NCBI GenBank assembly: GCA_018993265.1
Contig: JAGKSW010000074.1
Span: forward strand, 1-40,363
Direction: 5' to 3'
Source: Nostoc sp. TH1S01
Lineage (GTDB): Bacteria > Cyanobacteriota > Cyanobacteriia > Cyanobacteriales > Nostocaceae
Length of the DNA: 40,363 nucleotides
The translations under genes and the position numbers were made by a program. Shown here in pieces: positions 1,443-26,686 of this stretch. Positions within the stretch are counted from its first letter, which is position 1. Every line of letters begins with the position of its first letter. The notes below the pieces were generated by a model. That model saw nothing but the letters and a program-made list of their open reading frames with translations. It was not told the origin of the DNA and ran no database searches.

Positions 1443-3239
1443 TTAAAGACTCAAATCATCATCCTGTTCCCGCCGTTGCTGCTGCCGTAACTGCCGCCCA
1501 TAATCGATAAGCTGCTGATTCCAATCAGCCGCCTTGCACAACAGCCGAGTAGCCTGTGGCAGTAGTTCTTTTACTGCCCGTGCAGCTGCATCGCCCGAAG
1601 AGTCCGGGTCAAAAGCCACCTGCACATTAGGGATATGCCGTAATTGCTCTACAGGCAAGCTGTTGGGGCTATCAACTGCTATATACAGCGTTCTTGTTGG
1701 TGGCACATCGCTCCTAACTTGATACTCCAGCATAGCGAAGGATATGGCATCGATGGGTGATTTACACAGCACCACTTTCTCAGGTTGGTCAGTTGGCTGT
1801 CCGCCCAAATGAAAGTAAAACCAGCCCTCGCGCCTAGTGGTTCCTTTCTCATAACCCTTAAAGGTGTTGTTATTGCCCCTAGTCCCACGCAAAAATGCAC
1901 CATTAGCCAGGGGTTGACGGTCGAAATTCCGCATGACAAAGACAGCATTTTGCTGGTCATCAGCATAAACCAGCCCCCGTTCGTGGAGAGCCTGAACCAG
2001 ATTCTCTCCTATTAAGCGTTTTTGGGTGAGGTAGTCAGAGACTAACTGCCATTTGGCTTTGTCCTCAACTGGTAGCTGGAATTGGGGACGCGGTTCAGTC
2101 TGGATAATCTCACTAGTCATCTTTCGAGCGTGGGCTAAAGCTGCTTTTTCTGCGCCGGCTTCACCAAATCGGTCATGCAGCCAAGCGATCGCTTGCCGGA
2201 AATTACAAGAGTTAATGTGCATCACCAAGTCAATCGCACCACTGCCGCCCTTCTGGTGAGAGGGTGAAAAATCGTAGAACTTCGACCCATCTATATTAAT
2301 GATGTGATTGTGACCCCTCCACCTTTGACGAGCGTAATTTAGCCCCAACTCCCAGGCGACATCTTCCAAGGGCAGGTCACGCAGTTGACTGGTTGATTCC
2401 AACAGTTGCACCCGTTTTTCAAGTCGCTGCCGTTCCTTCTCGCTATACCTAGCCCGTTGCTCCGCTCGTTCTAATCGCTCAAGCATGAACTTACGGTCAG
2501 CCAGTTGGTGGTTAATGGTTTGGAAGTCCTCATGCTGCTGAATTCGGGCAATGTAAGTCCTGGCTGATTCAAATGGCGTTGGTGCTAGTTGCTGATTCGA
2601 CCAGACTGCGGTGAATGGTTCGCTGTTGACCGCTTGGTAATACTCTTTAACTTTGGTATGGGTTGCTTTACTGCCCTTCACCCCCCGTTCAATGCCCAAA
2701 GGCGCGAGTGCTTCTGCATAACTGTCTTGGAGTTTGGACAATTTAATGCTGGCAGCCCGACCATCACCGCCAAACATTTCTTTGTGACTTAGCTGTTTGG
2801 TCTTGTCGTTGATGGGAACAACGTAAGCATGAATGTGGGGAGTAGCTTCATCCAAGTGCAATTCTGCCCTGACGCACTTATCACCGTAGTTGTTGAGCAG
2901 CCATTGTCTAGAAGCTCCAGCAAACAAAACCATGCGTTCATGATTCCACTCACCAGCCTTTGATGGGTCATGAGGACGGAAATATTCAGGCGATGCCGAT
3001 AAAAATATGTCACTACACAGTACAGCATCCTTGCGGGGTTTGTGCTTAGTGGTGCTGGCTATCTTAGTTTTGACCAAATCTTCCAGTGCCGTGCCATCCT
3101 CCTCCCCAATCAGCCGGATATTTTTTTTAGTGCTGTCGGCGTTTGGGGTATCTTGTAAACGGGCGGTATGCTTTTCACTACCCCCAACATTGCCAAAAGA
3201 TTTGAGTTTTTCAACGCGCAGAATCGCTAAAGCCGCCAT
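1443..3239 (-). CDS. mobV: MobV-family relaxase with toprim-like C-terminus
   Basis: A 598-aa protein. The N-terminal ~200 residues are a Mob/Pre relaxase domain: residues 128-137 read HLDEATPHIH, the family's metal-binding HxDE..PHxH motif. Relaxases of this family nick one strand at oriT and lead plasmid transfer. A charged helical linker (~250-290) follows. Then comes a DUF3991-like segment (~300-400, with GGSGAIDLV), and a toprim_2-like domain (~480-570, with KSPIDAIS and AFDPDSSG). That fusion is common in cyanobacterial mobilisation proteins. I chose the ATG at 3239 (MAALAILRVEKLKS) because the upstream extension to 3380 reads through a GC-rich repeat and does not resemble relaxase sequence. 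No coupling gene is adjacent; the only candidate is the ATPase at 30016-31839. Confidence 0.85.
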   Translation of the reverse strand: MAALAILRVEKLKSFGNVGGSEKHTARLQDTPNADSTKKNIRLIGEEDGTALEDLVKTKIASTTKHKPRKDAVLCSDIFLSASPEYFRPHDPSKAGEWNHERMVLFAGASRQWLLNNYGDKCVRAELHLDEATPHIHAYVVPINDKTKQLSHKEMFGGDGRAASIKLSKLQDSYAEALAPLGIERGVKGSKATHTKVKEYYQAVNSEPFTAVWSNQQLAPTPFESARTYIARIQQHEDFQTINHQLADRKFMLERLERAEQRARYSEKERQRLEKRVQLLESTSQLRDLPLEDVAWELGLNYARQRWRGHNHIINIDGSKFYDFSPSHQKGGSGAIDLVMHINSCNFRQAIAWLHDRFGEAGAEKAALAHARKMTSEIIQTEPRPQFQLPVEDKAKWQLVSDYLTQKRLIGENLVQALHERGLVYADDQQNAVFVMRNFDRQPLANGAFLRGTRGNNNTFKGYEKGTTRREGWFYFHLGGQPTDQPEKVVLCKSPIDAISFAMLEYQVRSDVPPTRTLYIAVDSPNSLPVEQLRHIPNVQVAFDPDSSGDAAARAVKELLPQATRLLCKAADWNQQLIDYGRQLRQQQRREQDDDLSL

Positions 3240-3283
3240 TGATTTTCTCTCGAATTTTTCAAGTGTGCCAAAGGTGTGCAAAA

Positions 3284-3361
3284 CCCCGCAGGGGCGAACG
3301 GAACTTCTGCGTCCTGAGCGAAGCGAAGGATGGGCGCAGCCCACCCGCAGGGCGTAGAAGT
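3284..3361. repeat. GC-rich palindromic interspersed repeat
   Basis: A GC-rich patch just upstream of the relaxase start, unlike its AT-rich surroundings. It contains CCCCGCAGGGG (3284-3294) and arms ACTTCTGCG (3303-3311) and CGTAGAAGT (3353-3361, one mismatch) around GGGCGCAGCCC. It resembles the small palindromic repeats scattered through Nostocaceae genomes. It may fold in the relaxase leader RNA. Confidence 0.45.
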
Positions 3362-3546
3362 GTAGTGAGTACACCTCCATACTAGTACCCCCATCCCAAA
3401 TTTTTCTGCTACCGCCCCCAGTCTCCGCCTTCTCGTCACCGTGCCTTCTCTGTAATTCTCTTGACTGCCGCAGTTGGATTGCTTGCTAAAACTGCCTTTT
3501 GACTATTTTACGCCCACCAATTCCGCACTAGCATAACTTGTGATGT

Positions 3547-9658: not shown

Positions 9659-10498
9659 CTACTCATCCATCTGGGTACCCAGATTTTTGATTTGTTCTAG
9701 TGCTTCTACTACACCAACTTCATCAGCTAGTCGGATAAAAGCATTGGCTAATTCCTCCAGTAAGTCACTGCGATCTACTTCTACCCCCTCATCAGCTAAA
9801 TCCATCAACACACGGTTAATCTGCCTACTCAGCTTTTTAGGAATACGAAAGGTAGTTTGTGTGTAGTCGGGATTCTCACGCTTGGCTAATTTATCTTTAT
9901 CATTTAACTTACTAGCTGTCTGGGTAGTTGATTTTTCGGGTTGTTGAATGTCTGGGTATCCAGGTGGCTGAGTATCTGGTTTTTTGGATGGCTGGGTTTT
10001 TGACTGTTTAGATTTCTGGGTTTTAGTAGAAACGGATTTTTGGGGTGATAAATCTTTAGATGGTTGAGTATCTGGCTGTTCGGGTTGCTGAATGTCTGGG
10101 TATCCAGATGGCTGAGTATCTAATTTTTTAGATGGCTGGGTTTTTAGCTGTTCAGAATCTTTGGTATTTATCGATGCGAATTGTTGGCTTGATGAATCAT
10201 CAACTGGTTGATTATCTGGCTGTTCGGGTTGTTGAATGTCTGGGTATCCAGGTGGCTGAGTATCTGGTTTTTTGGATGGCTGGGTTTTTAACTGTTCAGA
10301 ATCCTGGGTATTTACCGATGCAGATTGTTGGCTTGATGAATCATCAACTGGTTGAGTATCTGGCTGTTCGGATGGCTGAATTTCCGGGTATCCAAATGTT
10401 TGGGTACTTTCTTGTGCTGCACCTAAAACTTCGCTAAATCGGCTCACCCTTTTACTGCCTGAACTATTTCGTTTTTTATTGCTGTCCAATCCCGCCAT
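9659..10498 (-). CDS. parB: ParB-like partition protein with ribbon-helix-helix C-terminus and repeat linker
   Basis: 279 aa. A basic N-terminus (KKRNSSGSKRVSRF) is followed by a disordered linker built from 48-residue repeats (GYPDIQQPEQPDTQP type, residues ~36-190). The C-terminal domain TTFRIPKKLSRQINRVLMDL (~213-232) and following helices look like a ribbon-helix-helix DNA-binding fold. It overlaps the ParA gene by 55 bp, as expected for the partner of a small ParA. The repeats carry a palindromic DNA motif also found upstream of parA and of the vap pair, so the gene may be its own centromere. The final residues (NLGTQMD) are coded by a perfect version of that palindrome. Confidence 0.7.
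   Translation of the reverse strand: MAGLDSNKKRNSSGSKRVSRFSEVLGAAQESTQTFGYPEIQPSEQPDTQPVDDSSSQQSASVNTQDSEQLKTQPSKKPDTQPPGYPDIQQPEQPDNQPVDDSSSQQFASINTKDSEQLKTQPSKKLDTQPSGYPDIQQPEQPDTQPSKDLSPQKSVSTKTQKSKQSKTQPSKKPDTQPPGYPDIQQPEKSTTQTASKLNDKDKLAKRENPDYTQTTFRIPKKLSRQINRVLMDLADEGVEVDRSDLLEELANAFIRLADEVGVVEALEQIKNLGTQMDE
9669..9684. repeat. Perfect 16-bp palindrome in the parB 3' end
   Basis: ATCTGGGTACCCAGAT is fully self-complementary and is the most symmetric member of the TCTGG-N4-CCAGA family in this region. It lies within the last codons of the parB-like gene. Confidence 0.7.
9951..10396. repeat. Four coding repeats of exactly 144 bp, each with a partition-type palindrome
   Basis: Copies of TCTGGGTATCCAGR start at 9951, 10095, 10239 and (degenerate, TCCGGGTATCCAAA) 10383, a constant 144-bp step. 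TATCTGG half-sites at 9973, 10069, 10213, 10261 and 10357 fall on the same 48-bp grid. Each unit codes 48 residues beginning GYPDIQ or GYPEIQ. Confidence 0.85.
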
Positions 10499-11046
10499 GC
10501 TAACTTTCCCCCACGAACTTTATAAATAGGAACTCCACTAGCCACTGCATCCTTATAAGCTTTGTAAAACCGAATTCCGCGACTGAAAACTGGATAATTC
10601 TGTAGTTTTAATGCTTCCATTGCCTCTTGTCCATCCTTTTGCGGCGGTGGAGGAACCATTGTCAGCAGAACTTTCCAGTTTGTATCCTGTGGCAAAGATT
10701 TTGCCATTAGTGCCATAGCATCCATACTCAATATGTCAGGTGGAGTTGGGACAATGAGCAAATCACAACCCTTGGCTAAATCTTCTACTTCCGCGTCATT
10801 AGGACGGGCTGGCGTGTCAAAAATGATGTACTCAAATTTCTGAGAACGCATTAGCTTGGCTGCTTCCTTTTCTCCACAAACCTGAAACGGTAGCCCTCCA
10901 GGTCTTGCCCAAGTGGTTGCTGAACGGTTTGGATCGGCATCAATAACTAAGGTTGCCCCATCATCACAAAACAGTGAGGCTAAACAGATCGCTGAAGTTG
11001 TTTTTGACACTCCGCCCTTAAAAGAGCTAAGAGAGATGATCGGCAT
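10444..11046 (-). CDS. parA: ParA-family partition ATPase, 200 aa
   Basis: Small ParA without an N-terminal DNA-binding domain. The deviant Walker A is residues 10-17 (KGGVSKTT) with both lysines present, but the usual glycine before the second lysine is serine. VIDADPN (34-40) and YIIFDTPARP (~73-82) are the A' and Walker B regions. Such ATPases form a nucleoid-bound gradient that positions plasmids through a ParB-type partner. ATG at 11046 follows GGGGAG. A palindrome stands 67 bp upstream (11113-11130), and the next gene overlaps it by 55 bp. Confidence 0.88.
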   Translation of the reverse strand: MPIISLSSFKGGVSKTTSAICLASLFCDDGATLVIDADPNRSATTWARPGGLPFQVCGEKEAAKLMRSQKFEYIIFDTPARPNDAEVEDLAKGCDLLIVPTPPDILSMDAMALMAKSLPQDTNWKVLLTMVPPPPQKDGQEAMEALKLQNYPVFSRGIRFYKAYKDAVASGVPIYKVRGGKLAWRDWTAIKNEIVQAVKG

Positions 11047-11228: not shown

Positions 11229-11660
11229 TTAAGAGGACGTTTCCTCATCAACAACGACCAAATCTACTCCGCACCTTGTAGCTGCTTGGGCTAATCTAGT
11301 ATCAATCGTTGCTAAGGGCAATCTCAACCGCAATGCCAATTCTAAGTAAGCTGCGTCATAAGCTGCTAAACCTTCCTGTCGCCCTAGCACCAGCGTTGCA
11401 CCCAATGCGTTTGCATCAGTAGCCGTATCAACCTGGATTAATAGTGACTGTAACAAAGCAATAGCTTCGGAGGATTGTTCAGTAGTCATGCGGTTACGCC
11501 GAAGAGCCACTAGTAGAACATTAGCAATCTCCAGTGACCAAATTCCTGGTACAAATGCTTCTGCATCCGGCATCATTGCTAGTATGCCATTAGCGTAATC
11601 GTTATTTTCATCCACCAAGCACCAGCTAATTGCTACAGAACAATCCAAAACAAACTGCAT
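11229..11660 (-). CDS. vapC: VapC-like PIN-domain toxin ribonuclease
   Basis: 143 aa, usual PIN-toxin length. Acidic metal-binding residues are in the expected order: Asp6 (FVLDCSVA), Glu44 (WSLEIANVL), Asp102 (AYDAAYLELA) and Asp120 (ATIDTRLA). VapC toxins cleave specific RNAs and are neutralised by the cognate antitoxin. The start codon overlaps the stop of the upstream antitoxin gene (TAATG), which gives coupling. Lying beside parA, with a shared upstream palindrome, it probably acts as a plasmid-addiction module. Confidence 0.88.
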   Translation of the reverse strand: MQFVLDCSVAISWCLVDENNDYANGILAMMPDAEAFVPGIWSLEIANVLLVALRRNRMTTEQSSEAIALLQSLLIQVDTATDANALGATLVLGRQEGLAAYDAAYLELALRLRLPLATIDTRLAQAATRCGVDLVVVDEETSS

Positions 11661-12313: not shown

Positions 12314-14257
12314 CTACTGAGTAGATATACTTTTTTGCAAATAAGTTTCCCAGTCTTCTTTTGCCTCCGAGTGTCTTTCTAAAGCAGTAAAAGCAATTGC
12401 TCGATTTTGATATAGGTCAGCAGTTTCTGGTGATATTGCAATCGCTTGATTTAAATCATTCAGAGCATCTTGATAACGTCCAGCCTCGTAATGGAGAACC
12501 GCGCGATTTGCCAGAACTAATGGCTGATTGCTATCTATTTTTAGTGCTGCATTATAATCTGCTAACGATTTATTTACTTCATCTAGCATTTCTAATACCT
12601 GGGCGCGTGCTACCAATACTGAGAATTGATTAGGTTGTAAATCTAGAGCATTGGAATAAGCATCAACTGCTTTCTGAAATTCACCTAAATGTCGATAGCA
12701 TTGTCCAACGTTCGCCCAAACTTCTGGATAAGGTGGGCTTAATTCAATGGCTTTAAAATAGTCAGATATGGCATTTTCTTTTTGACCCATTTTGAAATAT
12801 AAATTTCCCCGGTAATTGTAGTACTCCGAGTAATTTGAATCAATTTTTATGGCAGCATTAAAGTAATTAATAGCTTCTGTATAATTGCCAGTAAAATCAT
12901 AAACTTGAGCAATGTTAAAAAGTAAAACTGAACGATAAAGGAGATGTTGTTCTGGTTTGATAAAAGTATTAACTTGCTCATAGCACCACTGACAAAGTTC
13001 GATAGCTTCTTGGTGTCTGCCTTGACGATAGCGAATAAGTGCCAAGCCATTGCGGTTAAAAGTTGTCTGAAACAGTTTTAATTCTGATGATAGATGGCAA
13101 CGAGTTAATTCTTGTAAACCTTGCTCTAAATATGATTCGGCTTTGGTGATATCCTTTTCTTCTAATTCACGAATATACAACATCGCCATCATGAAACAGC
13201 CTTTAAATAAATGTTCGGGATTATTTGTTCTATTCATGGCTTGTTCCATTACCTCAAAAGCTTCCAGAGGTTTATCTAAAGCAACGTAGCTAGTGTATAG
13301 CATTGAATCAATTAACCAGTGTTTATCGATGTCTAAAGGGCAATAACGCTTTAACTGTTCCAATGCATCTAATGCAAAACTTAGCCCATCTTCATAAAAA
13401 CCTTTTCTATTATAAATAGTAGCGGCTTTAATTTGGTAATCTAACGCTTTTAAATGTTGGTTGCTCTTGAGTAAAAACTGAATTAGTCGCGGCAAATAAA
13501 TTTCTTGCTCAATCGGGTCATCCTTTAAGTTTTCTTCGATTTCAGCAGCAATGTTTGCTATGTCTTGTACAGATTGCACAGAAATATCTAAATTATTTTT
13601 ACTAGGTAAATTGAGATGTATATGCTTCAAATCATCTTGATTAAATTTGCCAATAATATCTGGTAAATTTATTTTATTGCCCATTATATTTGGAACTGTA
13701 ACTATCAATCTCAAATTCAGTTTTTGTGCGCTGCGTCGCATTAATTCAGCAAAAAATATTCGGACTAAACCACCAGATAATTCATAGTTATCGCCAGCAA
13801 TAATTAAGCTTGGAGTTTGGCAACGCTCAAACCAAGCAGTAAGAAAATCGATAACCCCGTGGATAATCCGAAATGCGCGGTCTGCTGGGTAATTACGGAT
13901 TTGCTCTTTTTCGACAGCCATATCTGTTAAGCTTGGATAGCGCACGGATATCAGGTGTCTTAATGCTGGTAAAACTCTGGTTAGTTCATAATCATGCTTA
14001 ACAATTAAATCTGGTGCTTGTACTTGAACTTGAGGAAGTATATCGGTTAATAAATCTTTTAACCCAGCCCAAGGCCCTTCCATAGTCTTATCGCAATTCA
14101 ACAACCAAGCCTTCGTTCCACTATCATGAGCCTTTTCAATAATTTGTTGTAAGTAATTATAACGACATTGACCTTTTGTTGCTTCTAATACTATTACCTG
14201 TCCAATTTCTGGAAGCAAATTTTGAAGGATACTGGTTGAATCAATACTTGAAACCAT
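12314..14257 (-). CDS. TPR-repeat protein with degenerate STAND/AAA-like N-terminus, 647 aa
   Basis: Residues ~1-230 resemble an AAA_16/STAND NTPase core (IGQVIVLEATKGQCRYNYL at the P-loop position, SLIIAGDNYELSGG at the Walker B position). The Walker A lacks the GKT signature, so ATP binding is doubtful. Residues ~270-640 are tetratricopeptide repeats; the last five are clear (e.g. SEYYNYRGNLYFKMGQKENA, PEVWANVGQCYRHLGEFQKA). It begins 6 bp after the M50 protease gene and is last in the operon. It is likely a scaffold or sensor that binds the peptide or the protease. No signal peptide or membrane segment is seen. Confidence 0.75.
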   Translation of the reverse strand: MVSSIDSTSILQNLLPEIGQVIVLEATKGQCRYNYLQQIIEKAHDSGTKAWLLNCDKTMEGPWAGLKDLLTDILPQVQVQAPDLIVKHDYELTRVLPALRHLISVRYPSLTDMAVEKEQIRNYPADRAFRIIHGVIDFLTAWFERCQTPSLIIAGDNYELSGGLVRIFFAELMRRSAQKLNLRLIVTVPNIMGNKINLPDIIGKFNQDDLKHIHLNLPSKNNLDISVQSVQDIANIAAEIEENLKDDPIEQEIYLPRLIQFLLKSNQHLKALDYQIKAATIYNRKGFYEDGLSFALDALEQLKRYCPLDIDKHWLIDSMLYTSYVALDKPLEAFEVMEQAMNRTNNPEHLFKGCFMMAMLYIRELEEKDITKAESYLEQGLQELTRCHLSSELKLFQTTFNRNGLALIRYRQGRHQEAIELCQWCYEQVNTFIKPEQHLLYRSVLLFNIAQVYDFTGNYTEAINYFNAAIKIDSNYSEYYNYRGNLYFKMGQKENAISDYFKAIELSPPYPEVWANVGQCYRHLGEFQKAVDAYSNALDLQPNQFSVLVARAQVLEMLDEVNKSLADYNAALKIDSNQPLVLANRAVLHYEAGRYQDALNDLNQAIAISPETADLYQNRAIAFTALERHSEAKEDWETYLQKSISTQ

Positions 14258-14263
14258 AAGATT

Positions 14264-15508
14264 TTACCTATTTTTTTTAGAAAAACTACGAATCCAAAGT
14301 GTAAAACCAATTAACTGAGGTATGCAGGCAAGTGATATTAGTAAGAGTGCATCAACAAATGCATAAGGATTAGTAAAAAAACCAGCACTCAGAACGGTAA
14401 AAAGTTTTATGCAATAGTGCCATATTAAAGGAAGTGTAATGAAAATTAAGGAGGCAATTGCAATAGTTCGCCCTACTAACCATAAAACTGCGTATGAACG
14501 AATTATTAACATTTCTTTTGCCGGAATATGGGATTGGTCTACTCGATGTACTCTACGAGTCAATCGGCTAATTTGATTACGAACAAATACCTCTGTATCT
14601 TTCATCAAGTTTTTGCAGTGAAAGAAATTAGCAATCACGTAATAAAAATCTGTACGTACAAAGAAATAACACTGCCATAACAAACCCAATAAGTAATTTA
14701 ATAACAACGCACGACTTAGTTGATAAACAACTAGAGACATAGTAATCCACTTATGATTTTCAGCAAAAAATATGAGGATGAGAATAGCAGCAGATACTAA
14801 ATCTAGAAGTGGCCCAGCTAAAAATGGAAGATAACGCTGCTTTCTATTTACGTTCCAAATACCAGTCATGTCAGTTTCTGCAACTAACATCCACATACGA
14901 TTGCTAATACCTATACGGCAAGAAACACCAAGCGCACGTGCTGCAACTAAGTGAGCCATTTCATGTAAAAATAGTGTTACGCAGTCCAGAACAACTAATG
15001 CTACAATCATCAATGTTGTATTGTTAGGAAAATAATAAGCTTCCCAACTAGGAATAAGCGTAGGGTCTGAAAAGACAGCAAGAAAAGCTAAAGCGAATAG
15101 AATATAGCAACCAATTAAAACAGGACGACTGAATAATTTTTGAGCAAGCGATTGTGGGAAATTTTGAAAATGGTAATGTACTTTTGCAGTATGTTGTACT
15201 GAGGATTTTAATGTAGACGTTAAAACATTATAATTAGCTTCAGATTGAAGTAAAACTTTGACAAATCCTTTATTTTCAAGAATATGTAGTAAGTCTTCAA
15301 TATCAGGAAGCTCACCATACTTTTGTTGATAGATTAATTGAGTCTCGCCAATCGTCTTTCCTAATGCTAAATAATCTAGGATTTCTACAGCATCAAATGG
15401 TAATACCAAAAAAGTATCTGTTTCTGTATGCCCGATAATGACTTCTTCACCATCTACCTGTCTGGTAAACGGGTAAACCGCTACTAGAGAATCACTTGTA
15501 TATCCCAT
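14264..15508 (-). CDS. PqqD-like domain fused to M50 site-2-type membrane protease, 414 aa
   Basis: Residues ~5-90 have a PqqD/RiPP-recognition-element look (DTFLVLPFDAVEILDYLALG, then a helical hairpin ending in NKGFVKVL). Several membrane helices follow. The metalloprotease motif HEMAH is at 182-186 inside a membrane segment, with AGPLLDL (231-237) as the likely second metal-binding region. This combination occurs in peptide-maturation clusters, where the N-domain holds the leader peptide and the protease cuts at or in the membrane. It follows the Cys-rich peptide gene across a 173-bp gap containing a hairpin and precedes the TPR gene by 6 bp. AAGG lies upstream of the ATG. Confidence 0.75.
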   Translation of the reverse strand: MGYTSDSLVAVYPFTRQVDGEEVIIGHTETDTFLVLPFDAVEILDYLALGKTIGETQLIYQQKYGELPDIEDLLHILENKGFVKVLLQSEANYNVLTSTLKSSVQHTAKVHYHFQNFPQSLAQKLFSRPVLIGCYILFALAFLAVFSDPTLIPSWEAYYFPNNTTLMIVALVVLDCVTLFLHEMAHLVAARALGVSCRIGISNRMWMLVAETDMTGIWNVNRKQRYLPFLAGPLLDLVSAAILILIFFAENHKWITMSLVVYQLSRALLLNYLLGLLWQCYFFVRTDFYYVIANFFHCKNLMKDTEVFVRNQISRLTRRVHRVDQSHIPAKEMLIIRSYAVLWLVGRTIAIASLIFITLPLIWHYCIKLFTVLSAGFFTNPYAFVDALLLISLACIPQLIGFTLWIRSFSKKNR

Positions 15509-15537
15509 TATGATTACCTTAAAAAATTAATGAAAAC

Positions 15538-15557
15538 CGCCACTTATTCAAGTGGCG
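15538..15557 (-). terminator. Hairpin between precursor and protease genes (attenuator)
   Basis: CGCCACTT and AAGTGGCG form a perfect 8-bp stem with a 4-base loop (15538-15557). On the minus strand it is followed by GTTTTC and, further on, a longer T-run before the protease gene. It fits a leaky terminator that lets the peptide be made in excess over the enzymes. Confidence 0.6.
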
Positions 15558-15681
15558 ATTTCATATATTAAATGGGAGAAACTATCAATTAAAAATTCCA
15601 AATTGAAAATAGACTGTTAAGCCAGAGAAATATATAGCTTTGCCGATTCTATTTTCAATTTTGAGCTATTAGTTGCCCAAA

Positions 15682-15798
15682 TTAACAACCACAACAACAA
15701 GCACCATAATATGATGGTCTTGTTGTTTTTAGAGTTTCAGCCTCACGAACAACAAACTTTTTCATCCGCTTGAGTTCTGGTTTATCCGTAGTCATCAT
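15682..15798 (-). CDS. Putative RiPP precursor peptide with C-terminal CCCGC, 38 aa
   Basis: ATG at 15798 with AGGAG 9-10 bp upstream. The first ~26 residues are charged (MMTTDKPELKRMKKFVVREA) and look like a leader. The end reads TRPSYYGACCCGC, a small Gly/Ala/Cys core with four cysteines in the last five residues. Gene order (tiny peptide, PqqD-like/M50 protease, TPR protein on one strand) is that of a peptide-maturation operon. No YcaO, radical SAM or LanM enzyme is present in the window, so the modification is unknown. Alternatives are a metal-binding peptide or a membrane-processed signal. I do not recognise a named family. Confidence 0.65.
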   Translation of the reverse strand: MMTTDKPELKRMKKFVVREAETLKTTRPSYYGACCCGC

Positions 15799-16109
15799 AA
15801 ATTTAATCTCCTAAAATGTAACTTGATAGAAGACTTGAATTAGTCTTTATCCGAGAATTAATACAGACCCAAATATAATAATTTCGCAAAAGGCTGCTCT
15901 TAACTTTTGTTAAGTCTTTCCTAAATCAATTCTGCTCTCGAATCACTCATCTGCTGAGGGCAAACGCTGGCGGTTATCCTCATATCTTGTACCTCTCCGT
16001 ACAAACCCAGACAACGTAAAAAGATACTCAATAAAGCTACCTAATTTTTATTGGCTGTTCTCGTTAAATCAACATAGGCCAGCACCGTAAAAAGCGGCTC
16101 TATGCCTTC
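15799..16109. other. Upstream region of the precursor gene with an integrase-tail repeat
   Basis: Holds copy A (15920-15985) of a 66-bp repeat that also lies upstream of the neighbouring 62-aa gene. The precursor promoter must be between this and the ATG, but cannot be fixed by eye. Confidence 0.5.
15920..15985. repeat. Direct repeat copy A (66 bp, integrase 3'-end derived)
   Basis: Matches 16389-16454 at 61 of 66 positions. Read on the minus strand it ends a frame with YEDNRQRLPSADE and stop, like the tail of a tyrosine integrase after its catalytic Tyr. With copy B it brackets the 62-aa gene. Confidence 0.75.
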
Positions 16110-16298: not shown

Positions 16299-16388
16299 TA
16301 TTGTGTTGCTCCTAATTCTTTAACAATAATCGTCAAAATTGACAATCATTTTATTCTCAAAAATCCTCAAAATTTCTAAATTGACATT

Positions 16389-16454
16389 CCTAAATCAATT
16401 CTGATATCGAGTCACTCATCTGCTGAGGGTAAACGCTGGCGGTTATCATCATAT
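16389..16454. repeat. Direct repeat copy B (66 bp, integrase 3'-end derived)
   Basis: Partner of 15920-15985, same orientation, 469 bp away. It starts upstream of the 62-aa gene's Shine-Dalgarno and carries the end of the integrase remnant frame. Confidence 0.75.
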
Positions 16455-16862: not shown

Positions 16863-17882
16863 ATGCTTAATCAGCCAAGTTGGGGGGAAATAGTCAAGGT
16901 CGAGTTAGAAGCGTGTTTAGATGCGCCAATCACTAGGTATTTTGACGCAGAACTTGACAAAGACCCAGACGTGTTAGCGCAGTTGTTAGCAGACAAGCGC
17001 AACCCCAATACTCGACGTGCTTACGAGAAAGATTTACGGGATTTTTTTCTGAAGATGACTTTGATGCCGCCGACAGGGGATAGTGTGTTGGAGTTTTTGC
17101 ACTTGCAGCGAGAGCAAGCGGTGATGGTGGTACTGAAGTACAAGGCGAAATTGATCGCGTCGGGACTGCGGGAGGCCACAATTAATCGGCGGTTGGCGGC
17201 GATTAAGTCTTTGGCGAAGATGGGGCGGAAGCTGGGAGTGTGCAACTATTCCCTAGAAGACGTGGAAGGGGAGAAGGTCAAGGCTTATCGAGATACGCGG
17301 GGTGTTGATAGCAAGACGATAGCACTGGTGCTACAGCAGTTTGATAGGGAGACTTTGATTGGTAAACGCAATTATGCGGTTTTTTTGGTGCTGTGGGGTT
17401 TGGCTTTACGTCGTCAGGAGATATGTCAGTTAAATGTGGGTGATTTTGATTTTTATGGGCGCAAGTTGCGGGTTTTGGGTAAGGGTAAGGGAACGAATGA
17501 AGAATATTTAGATATGTCTAGTGATGTGGCTCAGGCTCTGGCTGATTGGTTAATTGCCAGGGGAAATTTGAATGCAGATTTACCAATTTTTACGGCGTTA
17601 GATTTCCACAATGAAGGGCATAGATTGACTACGGATGCTATCTATAAAATAGTGTCGGCGGCTTTTAAGAAAGCGGGTGTAAAGAAACCGATGTCACCCC
17701 ATAGGGTTAGGCATTCGGCGATTACGGCGGCACTTGATGCGACAGATGGGAATATTAGAAAGGTACAGAAGTTGAGCCGTCATGCTGACCCCAGAACGTT
17801 GATGATTTATGACGATAACCGGAATAAAGATTTGTGGGAGATGTCGGAATTGTTAACGGGTATGTTGAAGGATTCCAAGTGA
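16863..17882 (+). CDS. Tyrosine-type site-specific integrase, 339 aa
   Basis: N-terminal SAM-like domain (~25-130), then the catalytic domain with Arg in LALRRQEICQL (~184), Lys in GKGKG (~206), HRVRH (~280-284), SRHAD (~306) and nucleophile Tyr in IYDDNR (~316). All active-site residues appear present, so it may be active. Such enzymes integrate or excise DNA at short att sites. A perfect AT-rich inverted repeat follows the stop (17891-17920). Its last ~60 codons are repeated with high identity at 19038-19223 beyond the sugar-kinase gene, suggesting that cargo was inserted or captured at its 3' end. Confidence 0.88.
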   Translation: MLNQPSWGEIVKVELEACLDAPITRYFDAELDKDPDVLAQLLADKRNPNTRRAYEKDLRDFFLKMTLMPPTGDSVLEFLHLQREQAVMVVLKYKAKLIASGLREATINRRLAAIKSLAKMGRKLGVCNYSLEDVEGEKVKAYRDTRGVDSKTIALVLQQFDRETLIGKRNYAVFLVLWGLALRRQEICQLNVGDFDFYGRKLRVLGKGKGTNEEYLDMSSDVAQALADWLIARGNLNADLPIFTALDFHNEGHRLTTDAIYKIVSAAFKKAGVKKPMSPHRVRHSAITAALDATDGNIRKVQKLSRHADPRTLMIYDDNRNKDLWEMSELLTGMLKDSK

Positions 17883-17920: not shown

Positions 17921-17977
17921 TTATTAATTATCTAGGTGAATTTTTTGTATGCCTCGATTAACAATAGGAAACTTAAA

Positions 17978-19033
17978 ATGAAAATTTTTGTGACGGGTCG
18001 TCTTTGTTTGTTCGGAGAACACAGCGATTGGGCAGGAGAATATCGCCGGATTAATCCTAATATCGAAAAGGGTTACACCTTAATTGTTGGTACTAATCAA
18101 GGAATTTATGCAGATATCAAACCTAATCCTACTGAGTTAATTATTCGTGCTTCTTTGGGTGATGGCAGAAGTTATGAACCGTTCAGATTACCTATGGAAA
18201 GTAATACTCTAAAGTGCGTAGCGCAAGAGGGCGGTTTTTTTAGTTATGCTGCTGGTACAGCTTATCAATTTCTAACCCACTATGGTGTTGGCGGACTTGA
18301 GGTTGACAATTATCTAACTGACTTACCTATCCAAAAGGGATTATCTTCAAGTGCTGCCTTTTGCGTTCTTATGGCGAGGGGATTTAATCGTTTGTATGAC
18401 TTGAAGATGACAATTCGTTCAGAAATGGAGTTAGCATACCAGGGAGAAAGAACCACTCCTAGTCTTTGTGGTCGAATGGATCAGGCTTGTGCTTATGGAA
18501 ATCGCCCAATCTTGATGATATTTGATGGTGAACAAATCGACATTATTGAGTTGAAAGTGGGCCAAGATTTATTTTTTGTGATTGTCGATCTCGGTGGCAG
18601 CAAAAACACACAAGAAATTCTCAGACGATTGAATGAGTGTTATCCAATAGCTACTAATCCAATAGAGCAAAATGTCCAAAAATATTTGGGTTCCATTAGC
18701 TCAGAAATTACCCTGGCTGCCGTAGAAGCAATACAACTTGGAGATGCTCAACTTCTTGGAGCTTTAATGACAAAAGCCCAAGCTGAATTTGATCAGCACG
18801 TAGTTCCGGCTTGTCCAGAAGAATTAACTGCAAAGAAACTACATCTTCTTCTCAATCACGAGCCTCTTCAACCTTATATCTACGGAGGAAAAGGTGTAGG
18901 TTCTCAGGGTGATGGCACTGCACAACTAATCGTTAAAAATCAAGAGAGTCAAACAAAAGCTATCGAAATTATTCAGCGCGATTTTCAAAAAATGCAAGCG
19001 TTACAGTTAACTATTTCAAAACTCCCCGTATGA
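17978..19033 (+). CDS. GHMP-family sugar kinase, 351 aa
   Basis: The start ATG at 17978 is preferred (AGGA 8 bp upstream, MKIFVTGRLCLFGEHSDW begins the fold); an in-frame GTG at 17936 would add 14 unlikely residues. GRLCLFGEHSDW (7-18) is the sugar-binding start. LPIQKGLSSSAA (116-127) is the GHMP phosphate-binding loop. GGKGVGSQGDG near residue 305 is the third motif. Galactokinase, arabinokinase and fucokinase-type enzymes look like this. The substrate is unknown, but the neighbouring fucosyltransferase-like gene makes a deoxyhexose or pentose plausible. It lies between two copies of the integrase 3' end. Confidence 0.8.
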   Translation: MKIFVTGRLCLFGEHSDWAGEYRRINPNIEKGYTLIVGTNQGIYADIKPNPTELIIRASLGDGRSYEPFRLPMESNTLKCVAQEGGFFSYAAGTAYQFLTHYGVGGLEVDNYLTDLPIQKGLSSSAAFCVLMARGFNRLYDLKMTIRSEMELAYQGERTTPSLCGRMDQACAYGNRPILMIFDGEQIDIIELKVGQDLFFVIVDLGGSKNTQEILRRLNECYPIATNPIEQNVQKYLGSISSEITLAAVEAIQLGDAQLLGALMTKAQAEFDQHVVPACPEELTAKKLHLLLNHEPLQPYIYGGKGVGSQGDGTAQLIVKNQESQTKAIEIIQRDFQKMQALQLTISKLPV

Positions 19034-19037
19034 TTGA

Positions 19038-19223
19038 CCACACAGGGTCAGGCACTCAGCGATTACGGCGGCGCTTGATGCCACTGACGGGAATATTAGA
19101 AAGATGCAGAAGTTGAGCCGTCATGCTGACCCTAGAACATTGATGATTTATGATGATAACCGGAATAAAGATTTGTGGCAGATGTCAGAATTGTTAACGG
19201 AAATTTTATCGTCAATGATATAG
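19038..19223 (+). pseudogene. Duplicate of the integrase 3' end
   Basis: Starting 4 bp after the kinase stop, the frame reads PHRVRHSAITAALDATDGN and goes on through KLSRHADPRTLMIYDDNR to LLTEIL, SSMI and stop. It is nearly the same protein as residues ~279-333 of the intact integrase, and most DNA differences are silent. The first half of the gene is absent and an in-frame TGA precedes it. Confidence 0.88.
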
Positions 19224-22819: not shown

Positions 22820-25800
22820 TTACCACAGACCATTACGACTGTCGGGATAACGGCGAAATATATATATATATATTAGTAATATCCTTATAAGATTGGTTTG
22901 TCTAAGTTCTTCGTCTAAAACTTCAGCACGAGTGAAAATATATAATAGAAAAAATAAATTTGTTTGTGTTATCGGTAGAGTTCTTTTGACACGAATCCAA
23001 AAATTTGATTGATGCCAAGCAAGGTAAAAATCAGGATAAGGTGTATCTTGAGCGCATTCCCAGATGAATTTGTATAGTTGACTATCTAATAACCAACTGC
23101 TAAGAAATTTAATTGCCTCCAAACGATGATTGTTATTTGTAGCGATTAGTGGCAAAGTACGTTCTGCCAACGAACGATTGTAATAATCATATACGTTTTG
23201 AGATTTCAGAAGTTGTAATAAAGTCTTGATTGCTATTTCATTACCTATGGCAATTTTACCTAAGCTCCATGCTGCCTGCCTGCGGATATAGAAATTTATA
23301 TCCTCAGATTTCATGATTTTTAATAAAGCATTGATTGCTGTTTGATTATTTCTACCGATTTTCTCTAAGCTCTCTATTGATATTTCTGTCCACTCATCCG
23401 ATAATTGCAGAATTTCAGCCAAAGAATTAATTGCTGTTTGATTATTTTTGCCGATTAGCCCTAAGCTTTGTATTACTAGTCCGCGAGTGTTGTAAGTAGT
23501 ATTTGGAGATCGTAGAATTTGCACTAAAGCATTTATTTCTTTGTTATCACCTTTTCCTATTTTTCCTAAGCTATCAACCGCAAGTTCATGGGTGTACTGA
23601 TCTACATCGTGGGATTCCAATAATTTTACCAAAGCGTCAATCGCTATTTGATTTCTCTTGCCGATTATGCTTAAGCAAAAAGCTGCTAGATAACGGGTAT
23701 CATCATCAAATTTTTGAGATAGTAACTGTTGTATTAAAGCAATGATAGCTGTTTGATTATTCTTGCCGATTATACCTAATTTTCCTGCTGCTAACTTACG
23801 GGTTTCGTAATCTAGTTCTTCTGATTGTAACAGTTTTATTAAAGCATTAATTGCTATTTGATTATTGATGCCTATATTGCCTAAACTTCTTATTATCGAT
23901 GAAAAATTATCCGCATATATGAATGAAGTCCAGTAACTAGTTGTCCAACCCATCCTATGTTGAGATTCTAGCCTTTGCTTATCAAGCGGATATGGGAGTT
24001 GCAAAATTTTTACTAAACCTCTTATTGCTATTTCACTACCTGTACCAATTTCTTCTAATCTTCTTAGGGTGTTATCCAGGCTTCCATAGTCTAGCCAAGT
24101 GACATTCATATATTGGAAGTGCAGTTGCTGTACTAAAGCATGAATTTCTGGATCATCATTATGATAAATTTGCTTTGGATTTCCTACTGTAGCTCTATAA
24201 ATGTCTTGATTATATTTCACTGATGCTGATAGCGATAAATCTTGAATTATGTCATCATCATTGTGAATTGTTTCTGAGCTTTCTATAAGGTATTTACTGA
24301 CAAACCGGACTTGCTGTGATTGTTTCAAAACAATCTTTTCTTTAATCCCTGTTTCTTTACTTTTACCAATTGATACTAATATCTTTGCTGTCCGGCTGAT
24401 AAGTTCATCATTTATAAGTTTAGAATCTTCCAATTCAGGAACTAAATGAATCCAAACAGGTAATTGCATCAAAGTTGCACTATCTACAACTTGGTATTTT
24501 AAGAGTTGGCCCAAAGCGGCAATAAATTTTTTATTTTTTCTACTAATTTCTTTGACATTTAGTGCTTCCGATATACGGGTTTCCTTATCTGTATTTTGGG
24601 ATTGTAGAGGTTGCAGTAAGCTAACGATTAGGTTGATCAAGTCTATATTTTCTGGAAATAATAAATTTTCTTGATAATTTAGAATCCAATCTCCGTCTGA
24701 AACAACCATTCGATTAGGAATAAATATTTTTTTAATATACCAAATAATTATTTTCTCTAAAATTTCATCAGATCTGGAATAATCTCTAAACTCAGCAATA
24801 CCTTCGGCTGCTAAAAAGTAAGCTCGGTATTCATAAAAGCTTTTGCCTATAAATAACGGACATTTACCACATCCATCTTTAAAGTTGACCAAAGCATTCA
24901 TAAACTGTTGCTTTTGCTTTCTTAGCTTGTTGTCTGCTCGTCCTAACCAAAATAAGATTGTCTGTTTCCACTGTGGTTCAAAGATACGGTATTTCTTATT
25001 TTTAACAGGTTTATTTTTATGTTTACGTGGTAAAAAAAAGTCCCAATCCTCAATTACTTGGGCTGCAAAGAATTCTTGAAATGACGTATGGAAGAAAGCA
25101 TAAACAGGTTCGCTATCGTTGTTATATATTCCTACTTGATTCAACCAGCCCAGTTTTTTTGCTAATTTTAGCAAAGAGTCATCATTGCCAATCATCAAGG
25201 AACGATTAACCAAGTATTGACTTAAAACAAAAGGGTTATTTTCTTTTTCTAAAGCTTCTTTAGCTAATTTACCCAGCTTTTTATTAAGTATTTTACGTTT
25301 ATCTATTTGTTCTGTAAATTGGTCTTGTGTCCATGTATATAAATCATTCACAAATAGTTGATAAAGTCCTGCTTGTGTATTAGGTAAATTACCTTCTTTT
25401 GATAACCAAGTCCGACAGAGCAAAGTCAGACATAGAGGATTTCTCACTAAGTCCTTAATCCCAGCTTTATCTTGCTGCATCAATGATTGACATAGCCTTT
25501 TACCACTGGCTTCATTTGGTTCTGGAATACTAAGAAACCACTTATGAATAAATGTCTCTACCTGATCTGGATAAGAAAATTTGAGAGTGCGAAAAATATC
25601 AAAGTTGTCTAGTCTATTGAAGGAGCTTCCATCCCACAAATTAACCCGGCAAGTTAGAAAAATTCTCGCTTTTTTTATTATTTCTCTTTTATTGATTTGC
25701 CATGCTATTTCTGTAATGGGATTGCCCCTAGAAACTGACATTTCATCTAGTCCATCTAGTAGCAACAAAACTTTACCATCGTTGAATAGAGATTTAAAAC

Positions 25801-26686
25801 TTCTTGTTAATTCCTTGCTGTCTTCAGCCTGATTGTATCTGTCAGCAACGTTCTTAAGCCAAGTATTAAATAGGTATGATTCTAGTTCTTCTCCCCGTAA
25901 ATCAACTAAAGATACCCAGATGACAATGGAATCTTGGATATTTTCATATCCCCAATCGGCTATTCGCTGTAAAAGTGTTGTTTTACCTGCTCCTGGTTCA
26001 CCAATAATAGCAATACGTTCACCCTTACTATTGGGGGTGTTCTTTTGCTTTAAAACTTCTACGAGAAACTCATCCTGTTCAAATGTTCTTTTAATTTCTG
26101 TATCTCTATAAAGTTCTGAAGCGTGTTCTAAAACATCACTCCAAGGCTTTGGCCGTTGTTTACGTTCTCTATCACTGGTAAATTCTGAACCTTGTTCTAT
26201 AAAATCATCATCTTGACGCTTAGACTGTTTTTTACGTTCTTCTAAACCCAAAGGTACATAAACATCATCAACCTGTAGGTTTACACCCTCACTTACAGTC
26301 AAGGGATTAGTTGTCAGCCTTTGACGTTCTGCCAACATTTCACGACAGATTTCACGCCAGTCATCGGGAAACTTTGTCATATCCTCCCCTGGAGACAACT
26401 CCGAGGAATTTACCTGGTTGACAATAACTTGATTATTATTTCCTTTGATTTGTACGAGATTGCCATTTACTTGCCCAAGCTGTAACTGACTTTCTAGAAT
26501 TAAGGAGTTTTCAATATTACCTTGAACTACTGTATTATTGTCACCTAAAACAGATTGATTCTCATCACCTTGAACAACTCGATTTTGATTCCCCTGAACT
26601 ACATTCTGAGGTGCAGAAATATCAGCCTGTTGTAAGGGATTTACATCAGGCTGTTGTGATTCTAAATTCTCAGGGTGCTGACTCAT
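22820..26686 (-). CDS. NACHT-domain NTPase with HEAT-like repeats (NLR-like), 1288 aa
   Basis: Residues 29-60 hold four eight-residue repeats (VVQGNQNR, VVQGDENQ, SVLGDNNT, VVQGNIEN) and a further beta-like stretch to ~92. The NACHT module has Walker A GEPGAGKTT (229-237) and Walker B LLLLDGLDE (307-315), with FLTCRVNLWDG as sensor. Residues ~860-1230 are HEAT-like repeats of the LGNIGINNQIAINALIKLL kind. Bacterial NACHT proteins of this architecture often act as STAND immune sensors, with repeats sensing and the N-terminus signalling. It starts 9 bp after the pentapeptide gene, which carries the same eight-residue repeat. Confidence 0.85.
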   Translation of the reverse strand: MSQHPENLESQQPDVNPLQQADISAPQNVVQGNQNRVVQGDENQSVLGDNNTVVQGNIENSLILESQLQLGQVNGNLVQIKGNNNQVIVNQVNSSELSPGEDMTKFPDDWREICREMLAERQRLTTNPLTVSEGVNLQVDDVYVPLGLEERKKQSKRQDDDFIEQGSEFTSDRERKQRPKPWSDVLEHASELYRDTEIKRTFEQDEFLVEVLKQKNTPNSKGERIAIIGEPGAGKTTLLQRIADWGYENIQDSIVIWVSLVDLRGEELESYLFNTWLKNVADRYNQAEDSKELTRSFKSLFNDGKVLLLLDGLDEMSVSRGNPITEIAWQINKREIIKKARIFLTCRVNLWDGSSFNRLDNFDIFRTLKFSYPDQVETFIHKWFLSIPEPNEASGKRLCQSLMQQDKAGIKDLVRNPLCLTLLCRTWLSKEGNLPNTQAGLYQLFVNDLYTWTQDQFTEQIDKRKILNKKLGKLAKEALEKENNPFVLSQYLVNRSLMIGNDDSLLKLAKKLGWLNQVGIYNNDSEPVYAFFHTSFQEFFAAQVIEDWDFFLPRKHKNKPVKNKKYRIFEPQWKQTILFWLGRADNKLRKQKQQFMNALVNFKDGCGKCPLFIGKSFYEYRAYFLAAEGIAEFRDYSRSDEILEKIIIWYIKKIFIPNRMVVSDGDWILNYQENLLFPENIDLINLIVSLLQPLQSQNTDKETRISEALNVKEISRKNKKFIAALGQLLKYQVVDSATLMQLPVWIHLVPELEDSKLINDELISRTAKILVSIGKSKETGIKEKIVLKQSQQVRFVSKYLIESSETIHNDDDIIQDLSLSASVKYNQDIYRATVGNPKQIYHNDDPEIHALVQQLHFQYMNVTWLDYGSLDNTLRRLEEIGTGSEIAIRGLVKILQLPYPLDKQRLESQHRMGWTTSYWTSFIYADNFSSIIRSLGNIGINNQIAINALIKLLQSEELDYETRKLAAGKLGIIGKNNQTAIIALIQQLLSQKFDDDTRYLAAFCLSIIGKRNQIAIDALVKLLESHDVDQYTHELAVDSLGKIGKGDNKEINALVQILRSPNTTYNTRGLVIQSLGLIGKNNQTAINSLAEILQLSDEWTEISIESLEKIGRNNQTAINALLKIMKSEDINFYIRRQAAWSLGKIAIGNEIAIKTLLQLLKSQNVYDYYNRSLAERTLPLIATNNNHRLEAIKFLSSWLLDSQLYKFIWECAQDTPYPDFYLAWHQSNFWIRVKRTLPITQTNLFFLLYIFTRAEVLDEELRQTNLIRILLIYIYIFRRYPDSRNGLW

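Follow-up and report, generated by a model that had tools for sequence, protein, structure and literature searches.

Which kind of peptide system is encoded by an operon that consists of a very small gene, a membrane protease and a large repeat protein? The question is raised by three adjoining genes on the minus strand of contig JAGKSW010000074.1 of the cyanobacterium Nostoc sp. TH1S01 (40,363 bases; this whole stretch is called the window in the following), in which a 38-aa open reading frame (ORF) is followed, in the order of transcription, by an M50 metalloprotease and a tetratricopeptide repeat (TPR) protein. An earlier note on this DNA had described them as a minimal Cys-rich operon of the RiPP type (ribosomally synthesized and post-translationally modified peptides), and its gene calls have held: the small ORF has a good ribosome site (AGGAG, 9 nt before the ATG) and ends in YYGACCCGC, the membrane metalloprotease with its HEMAH motif comes next, and the large TPR protein of 647 aa is third (Table 1). 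To this description the strand is added here, as well as the number of precursor copies, which ranges from 1 to 12 per locus. We regard it as probable that the trio is a RiPP-like maturation operon, in which an intramembrane protease fused to a RiPP recognition element (RRE) would bind the leader of the precursor, cut near a linker of small residues and release the core, assisted by the TPR protein as an escort or adaptor.

Occurrence of the Trio in Three Phyla

Among 192 genomes of the same family, in which protease and peptide were searched separately, the protease has been found in 12, the peptide in 13 and both in 11; with the genome of the window excluded, the numbers are 11, 12 and 10 of 191 genomes (Fisher p = 5e-14). 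Conservation of the small ORF beside protease homologues, on which the earlier note had staked its reading beforehand, is thereby seen in 10 of the 11 other protease genomes. The single protease-only genome is of the ThiF type described below, and the peptide matches of the two peptide-only genomes (G105 and G185; E 0.05-0.08, the 16 kb read being free of protease matches) are taken as chance. That the small gene itself is a chance ORF has been rejected on the grounds of this independent co-occurrence and of a leader pattern of which nearly all matches lie at protease loci.

Over 217 genomes of the family, 16 carry the protease, 14 of them with an adjoining TPR gene; in the other two, a ThiF gene takes its place. 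When 386 genomes of the phylum were searched by profile, three matched (the own genome, G116 and G235), and a scan of named genomes added one relative in the Chloroflexota (G560) and one in the Gloeobacterales (G561). The search of 400 Chloroflexota genomes returned 16 matches, three of which were weak and have been left out (G613, G732 and G799); the other 13 comprise seven of the TPR type including G560, three of the ThiF type and three without type (G895, G724 and G711). Eight loci were read from 27 plasmid records, one of which, on a Streptomyces plasmid, carries the trio, the other seven being of the ThiF type. Altogether, 22 trio loci are at hand from Cyanobacteriota (14, all of the own family), Chloroflexota (seven) and Actinomycetota (the one Streptomyces plasmid). 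They have been grouped by us into 12 lineages, with two members of the own genus counted apart and the Chloroflexota and Streptomyces lineages set by eye; counts over 13 lineages include the Gloeobacterales in addition.

In 378 kb with 399 ORFs of at least 60 aa, the protease and TPR families are present at all 22 trio loci, and the next most widespread neighbour family reaches just 3 of the 12 lineages; therefore, the trio has no tailoring enzyme, transporter or regulator as a conserved neighbour. The earlier statement that no standard modifying enzyme is present agrees with this, as none is among the families recurring at the 22 loci. No third gene family recurs there, with some flanks being short and the neighbours mostly unannotated, which leaves a distant or lineage-specific partner possible. 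Genes for YdjM and an FAD oxidase beside the precursor array of the Chloroflexota locus L094 have been set aside as candidates; they have counterparts by size in three related genomes and in no other trio lineage.

A Conserved Leader Followed by Variable Cores

All 22 trio loci, and the Gloeobacterales genome as well, have a precursor gene upstream of the protease. The set collected by regular expression holds 79 copies, 50 of which are distinct when counted from the leader MKK onward, and the leader consensus MKK[FIL]x[IV]R[EK]xExx[KR]TT fits 46 of these 50 peptides; K3, R7 and T15 are invariant in all 50, E10 is kept in 48 and T14 in 47. In 658 kb with 8,344 short ORFs, the leader pattern has 79 matches; as it was derived from the same peptides, this count gauges specificity, not discovery. 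Seventy-five of the matches lie at most 2.8 kb upstream of a protease on the same strand; the remaining four sit at a contig end that seemingly holds the other part of the array of G181, which appears split across two contigs, and none is found elsewhere.

Behind the leader follows a linker of small residues (RPS, RAS, AAA, PAA or AA) and then the core, in which Tyr-x(1-4)-Cys is present in 47 of the 50 distinct peptides; Chloroflexota arrays dominate this count, and by lineage the motif is found in 10 of 13. Four related Chloroflexota genomes carry 9, 11, 12 and 11 precursors. In the Chloroflexota arrays, the mean pairwise identity amounts to 86% in the leader, 96% in the segment AAFYAGGC and 21% in the tails, which number 27 distinct sequences among 43, are 4-15 residues long and end in Pro in 39 cases. 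The ratio of nonsynonymous to synonymous polymorphism (pN/pS) in these arrays is 0.17 for the leader and lowest, 0.05, for AAFYAGGC; for the leader of eight peptides of the own family it is 0.12. The leader is under purifying selection, and the tails are hypervariable. Since leader and AAFYAGGC are constrained and the tails divergent, the CCCGC end is, as judged by sequence comparison, the variable part of the precursor, and the leader its conserved part.

The Cys-rich CCCGC end, which the earlier note had placed in the foreground, is not supported as the essence of the peptide: the 50 unique cores contain 0 to 4 Cys, four being reached in just two of them, and no other peptide of the set ends in CCCGC. 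Cores with few or no Cys (AAAMYGPSCN, YPIWLCIGL, IPSHNP and SAPFSHQPAIVPV) stand beside the same protease and TPR genes, and the last two, from the same-genus relative G144 and the Streptomyces trio, are devoid of Cys. Metal binding is conceivable for CCCGC and for the CCCAHC of G106; a Cys-rich metal-binding peptide set free by the protease, which had also been proposed, is nevertheless highly improbable and finds no support in conservation, relatives with one or no Cys being encoded next to the same genes. A lipobox reading of YGAC/YAGGC has been set aside as well, since the Cys is preceded by Ile, Leu or Met in several cores and the leader is without a hydrophobic stretch.

An RRE-Like Domain Fused to an M50 Protease

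The window protease is matched by the Pfam M50 profile with E 2.5e-6 and 27.4 bits against a cut-off of 27.2, and each of the 22 trio proteases contains HExxH as well as TDxY. By analogy to M50 families, the Asp motif TDFY is the candidate third zinc ligand. With HExxH and a distal Asp motif in a membrane protein, the protein can be classed as a predicted protease of the M50/site-2 type. No match of the window protease has been found at E up to 1 to the daptide M50 model NF041824, for which a sister-type protease reaches 15.9 of 300 bits, or to DUF3267, Pfam M50 being its sole match.

In the AlphaFold model (mean predicted local distance difference test score, pLDDT, 78.6), an N-terminal domain of strands and helices precedes a helical, membrane-like remainder. 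The best Foldseek match of this domain is the lasso RRE TbiB1 (5v1v; probability 1.00, template modeling score over the target 0.74, E 0.019), the structure of which shows the RRE crystallised together with its leader, and McbBCD, TruD and the PbtF RRE are also among the 50 matches listed. The domain thus models as an RRE, and its fusion to the protease implies that the latter would locate its substrate through the leader. The label PqqD-like, which the earlier note had given to the domain, stands as far as the predicted fold is concerned, which is RRE-like, and falls at the level of the Pfam PqqD profile, which misses it by sequence. In the own genome this profile has four matches, the window protease not among them, and the sister-type protease of G076 is matched below threshold (E 0.01).

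The TPR Protein and Its Head

From an alignment of 11 sequences, AlphaFold models the TPR protein (pLDDT 86.8) as an alpha/beta head of ~245 residues and a TPR superhelix. Matches to AAA_16 are weak and sub-threshold in four of six N-domains scanned (best 8.4e-4); none has been obtained for the window's own head, nor for L094 at E up to 0.01, and the head alignment has a loop without GK[ST] at the place of the P-loop. A profile search of the PDB with the N-domain ended at a best E of 0.35, and in a structure search TPR superhelices dominate the best 50 matches, by which the head is left unclassified. It is perhaps a degenerate STAND-like NTPase (signal transduction ATPase with numerous domains; nucleoside triphosphatase). 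The head profile, which contains no Streptomyces-type head, matches once each in the genomes G000 and G116 and not in G561 or the ThiF-type genome G076. A break divides the TPR gene of G106 into two ORFs (L039:1254-3279) beside whole precursor and protease ORFs, and this gene has been left out of alignments A2 and A3. The FxSxx-COOH TPR protein (NF040586) likewise belongs to a small-peptide system; the window protein scores 23.7 bits with this model in its TPR part only and does not reach the cut-off of 300. An escort or adaptor function is probable for the TPR protein, and the scaffold role named in the earlier note is plausible.

The same types of parts occur in RRNPP/Eep-like signalling, where an M50 protease matures a pheromone and a TPR protein senses it, and the TPR protein here may carry a STAND-like head. 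We consider such a signalling system unlikely: no helix-turn-helix or other output domain has been found in the scan of the window's N-domain or among the best 25 of 33 families in the full-length scan, and the leader is charged, unlike a hydrophobic signal peptide. Moreover, arrays that supply a genome with 9-12 precursors and 9 to 12 different tails misfit a scheme of one pheromone and one receptor, and an RRE on the protease follows the logic of RiPPs. Much less likely still is an anti-phage or other immune module. Such modules often contain STAND/TPR proteins, the plasmid-like contig encodes a NACHT/HEAT protein, and the TPR protein has weak PADLOC matches; these are, however, confined to the TPR part (TPR models; PDC-M71B, E 0.003), the protease has none, and hypervariable precursor arrays are not known to have a counterpart in defence systems.

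Sister Loci with a ThiF-Family Protein

Relatives of the M50 protease in G076, G544, G235, three Chloroflexota genomes and seven of the eight actinomycete plasmid loci adjoin a ThiF-family protein. Kindred leaders have been found at such loci, namely IRKLERLETT (G076), IRKLEKLETT (G544), IRKLEKIETT (Nonomuraea, G842), RRLERVETT (Actinacidiphila) and IRRMEKLET (G235); at the plasmid loci L055, L056, L070, L071 and L072 and at L103, no precursor with the leader motif was detected. In the protease tree, which is midpoint-rooted and includes some Actinomycetota proteases as over-long ORFs, nine ThiF-type proteases separate from the rest at 100/99 and the Streptomyces ThiF group of L056 clusters with the TPR types; because of the long branches, this is tentative. 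Loci with an IRKLExxETT ORF, a ThiF-family protein and an M50 relative are L049:5372-8119, L066:7171-9896, L069:3691-6221 and L100:6930-9530, and short cores such as KGRDGGCC and AHRSNDR occur at loci of this kind. On some Streptomyces plasmids (L056:1754-5941 and L072:720-4905), the gene ahead of ThiF and the M50 relative encodes a BTAD-domain regulator.

The ThiF-family protein beside an M50 relative at the sister loci also speaks for a full RiPP pathway, in which a tailoring enzyme encoded elsewhere would act on the Tyr/Cys region before the cut. Tyr-x(1-4)-Cys in 47 of 50 cores and the pN/pS of AAFYAGGC suggest a conserved chemical or cleavage requirement, and the four other PqqD-domain profile matches of the own genome may point in the same direction. 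This pathway, of which the trio would form just a part, is compatible with the maturation operon and possible, if rather doubtful: for an essential, dedicated enzyme, it would be odd that no third family is found in more than 3 of the 12 lineages.

Proposed Maturation and Points That Weigh Against It

The RiPP-like character asserted in the earlier note is supported by general traits of these systems: short precursors, a conserved leader, a variable core and genetic linkage to a processing protein have been found, and the predicted RRE fold in the protease would provide a leader-recognition element; none of six peptides scanned against curated models was above a cut-off. In the maturation operon favoured here, the precursors would be made as leader, small-residue linker and a core with, in most cases, Tyr-x(1-4)-Cys, together with a variable tail. 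The leader may then dock on the RRE at the N-terminus of the site-2-type protease, which would cut near the linker, and the Tyr/Cys core would be released, possibly outward across the membrane as proposed for EpeP, so that the membrane-released product of the earlier note is plausible. In the cytosol, the TPR protein would hold or deliver the precursors in the manner of the TMcin escort. Only tentatively, one may go further and regard the RRE-fused protease and a pseudo-STAND TPR protein as the whole RiPP-like machine, with the TPR protein as Tyr/Cys-modifying factor or precursor-loading escort, and some Chloroflexota as combinatorial producers with about ten peptides per leader.

Several observations count against the proposed maturation. 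The AlphaFold alignment of the protease has just 13 rows, no Foldseek match of its model lies below E 0.001, and with an E limit of 1 the Pfam PqqD profile still has no match to this protease. Tyr-x-Cys is missing in 3 of 13 lineages (G144, the Gloeobacterales and Streptomyces), the core of G144 being just IPSHNP. In the Gloeobacterales genome, precursor and protease occur with no match to the TPR N-domain, and therefore the TPR protein is not always needed; in Nonomuraea, a protein related to the Streptomyces TPR protein is encoded where the 14 kb read yielded no match to the protease. Furthermore, no modifying enzyme has been found, so a RiPP in the strict sense is not established, and, with no third family at the trio loci, there is no recurring transporter either.

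Comparison with Known Systems

Epipeptides require a radical S-adenosylmethionine (SAM) epimerase and are not known to have a TPR partner, and pearlins are built by peptide aminoacyl-tRNA ligases. Unlike in these systems, neither enzyme is conserved at the trio loci, and none has been found among the window neighbours scanned, the neighbours at other loci being mostly unannotated. In both classes, M50 proteases remove leaders or release products (PMC10885120). The likeness concerns the short precursor of epipeptides (EpeX/YydF), which is processed and perhaps exported by the intramembrane M50 protease EpeP, for which the consulted sections of the source state no RRE, and the membrane M50 protease of pearlins (TglG/TmoG), which frees the C-terminal part of a scaffold peptide as the product, in most cases a single modified amino acid (PMC10885120). 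In TMcins (TmcP, TmcE), a site-2-type protease likewise cleaves the leader off within the membrane, and an escort is required; according to the consulted sections, which describe no RRE, their own features are a transmembrane helix in the precursor, TmcP as a DUF3267 protein, a two-helix membrane escort, a DsbA-like protein and an ATP-binding cassette (ABC) transporter (PMC13252029). The window, in contrast, encodes a charged 38-aa precursor, an M50 protease without DUF3267 and a TPR partner, and does not qualify as a TMcin locus.

In lasso systems, the RRE (B1) works with a leader peptidase (B2), and TbiB1 is the best match of the N-domain; the Thr at position -2 of lasso leaders does not vary (PMC10885120), and T15 is invariant near the end of the leader here. 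However, the window protease is of the M50 and not of the transglutaminase-like kind, no lasso cyclase is conserved at the 22 loci, and the scanned neighbours in the window include neither a cyclase nor a transglutaminase-like protease. ThiF-type RiPP loci (microcin C, pantocin, GrcB, IndF) resemble the sister loci, which combine a ThiF-family protein, an M50 relative and, at several of them, a precursor with an IRKLEKxETT-like leader, whereas the window type is without ThiF; IndP, the protease of the ind cluster, is an M16 protein (PMC12150305). The trio therefore looks like an undescribed RiPP-like variety, distinct from lasso peptides, daptides, epipeptides, pearlins and TMcins. Titles and beginnings of abstracts in the literature searched, with subscription journals thinly covered, contain no trio of RRE-M50 and TPR proteins, and by term counts the words M50, TPR and tetratricopeptide are absent from the main text of two RRE surveys.

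Operon Layout and Genomic Context

The protease and TPR genes are separated by 6 nt. The hairpin between precursor and protease genes folds with z = -4.5, and at four of five further loci z is -3.2 to -4.0 (L052, -1.3), all six folded loci, the window included, having been picked for a visible hairpin; at L041, there is none between the two genes. The terminator scan gave two sites against 1.5 expected from shuffles, which is no excess, and both sites are this hairpin. Possibly, it acts as an attenuator or partial terminator that would keep precursor transcripts in excess.

Table 1. Features of the operon and of its surroundings in the window.
Feature	Position	Strand	Description and basis
Precursor peptide ORF	15682..15798	-	38 aa, MMTTDKPELKRMKKFVVREAETLKTTRPSYYGACCCGC, end YYGACCCGC; homologues upstream of M50 in relatives
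Conserved leader	15721..15765	-	MKKFVVREAETLKTT; 50 unique relatives align gap-free
Variable core	15685..15720	-	RPSYYGACCCGC; linker RPS, then Tyr..Cys motif; core comparison
Shine-Dalgarno-like AGGAG	15808..15812	-	9 nt ahead of precursor ATG; sequence
Hairpin with U-rich tail, between precursor and protease genes	15533..15562	-	folding and terminator scan
RRE-fused M50 (site-2-protease-type) membrane metalloprotease	14264..15508	-	414 aa; Pfam M50, HExxH, TDxY
Predicted N-terminal RRE / PqqD-like domain	15248..15508	-	~residues 1-87; AlphaFold model and Foldseek
HEMAH zinc-binding motif	14951..14965	-	residues 182-186; sequence
TDFY motif, candidate third zinc ligand	14642..14653	-	residues 286-289; TDxY in 35/35 proteases checked
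TPR protein	12314..14257	-	647 aa; N-terminal alpha/beta domain and TPR superhelix
N-terminal domain of TPR protein, perhaps degenerate AAA_16/STAND-like NTPase	13523..14257	-	without P-loop GK[ST]; weak homologue matches
Mob_Pre-domain protein	1443-3380		
ParA-like protein	10444-11046		
PIN-domain protein	11229-11660		
VapE-like protein	36782-39325		

The genome to which the contig belongs amounts to 7.65 Mb and has 10 matches to a phycobilisome family, for which Synechococcus elongatus alone among 14 control genomes gave a match; this marks it as cyanobacterial. The Mob_Pre, ParA-like, PIN-domain and VapE-like proteins encoded by the contig suggest that it is a plasmid or other mobile element, which is probable for this reason; DNA-level comparison with plasmids gave no match. 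A phage or virus origin has been rejected, the phage search having been empty and none of 66 viral_contigs stretches that fitted a pattern having been confirmed. Upstream of the operon, a 68-nt direct repeat with 93% identity is found at 15918-15985 and 16387-16454. The 3' end (17696-17866) of a tyrosine recombinase gene at 16863-17882 is repeated over 171 nt with 89% identity at 19037-19207, behind the gene of a GHMP kinase (17936-19033); the arrangement looks like the insertion of a cassette into the recombinase's own end. At 22820-26686, a NACHT and HEAT-repeat protein with NCC-H near its C-terminus is encoded, adjoined by the gene of a pentapeptide-repeat protein (26696-28999) with a weak PADLOC match to PDC-M14B. 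A 279-aa protein (9659-10498) with repeated QPSKKPDTQPPGYPDIQQPE-like units has no Pfam match at E <= 0.001.

Implications

If the proposed maturation is true, a leader-guided intramembrane protease would be added to the RiPP toolkit. The leader motif together with the gene pair offers a simple handle for finding such loci in three phyla, and the natural arrays present up to 12 precursors on one leader type. Finally, the exchange of ThiF and TPR proteins beside related proteases and leaders of a similar type raises the question of what role a partner that does not resemble an enzyme may play in peptide maturation.

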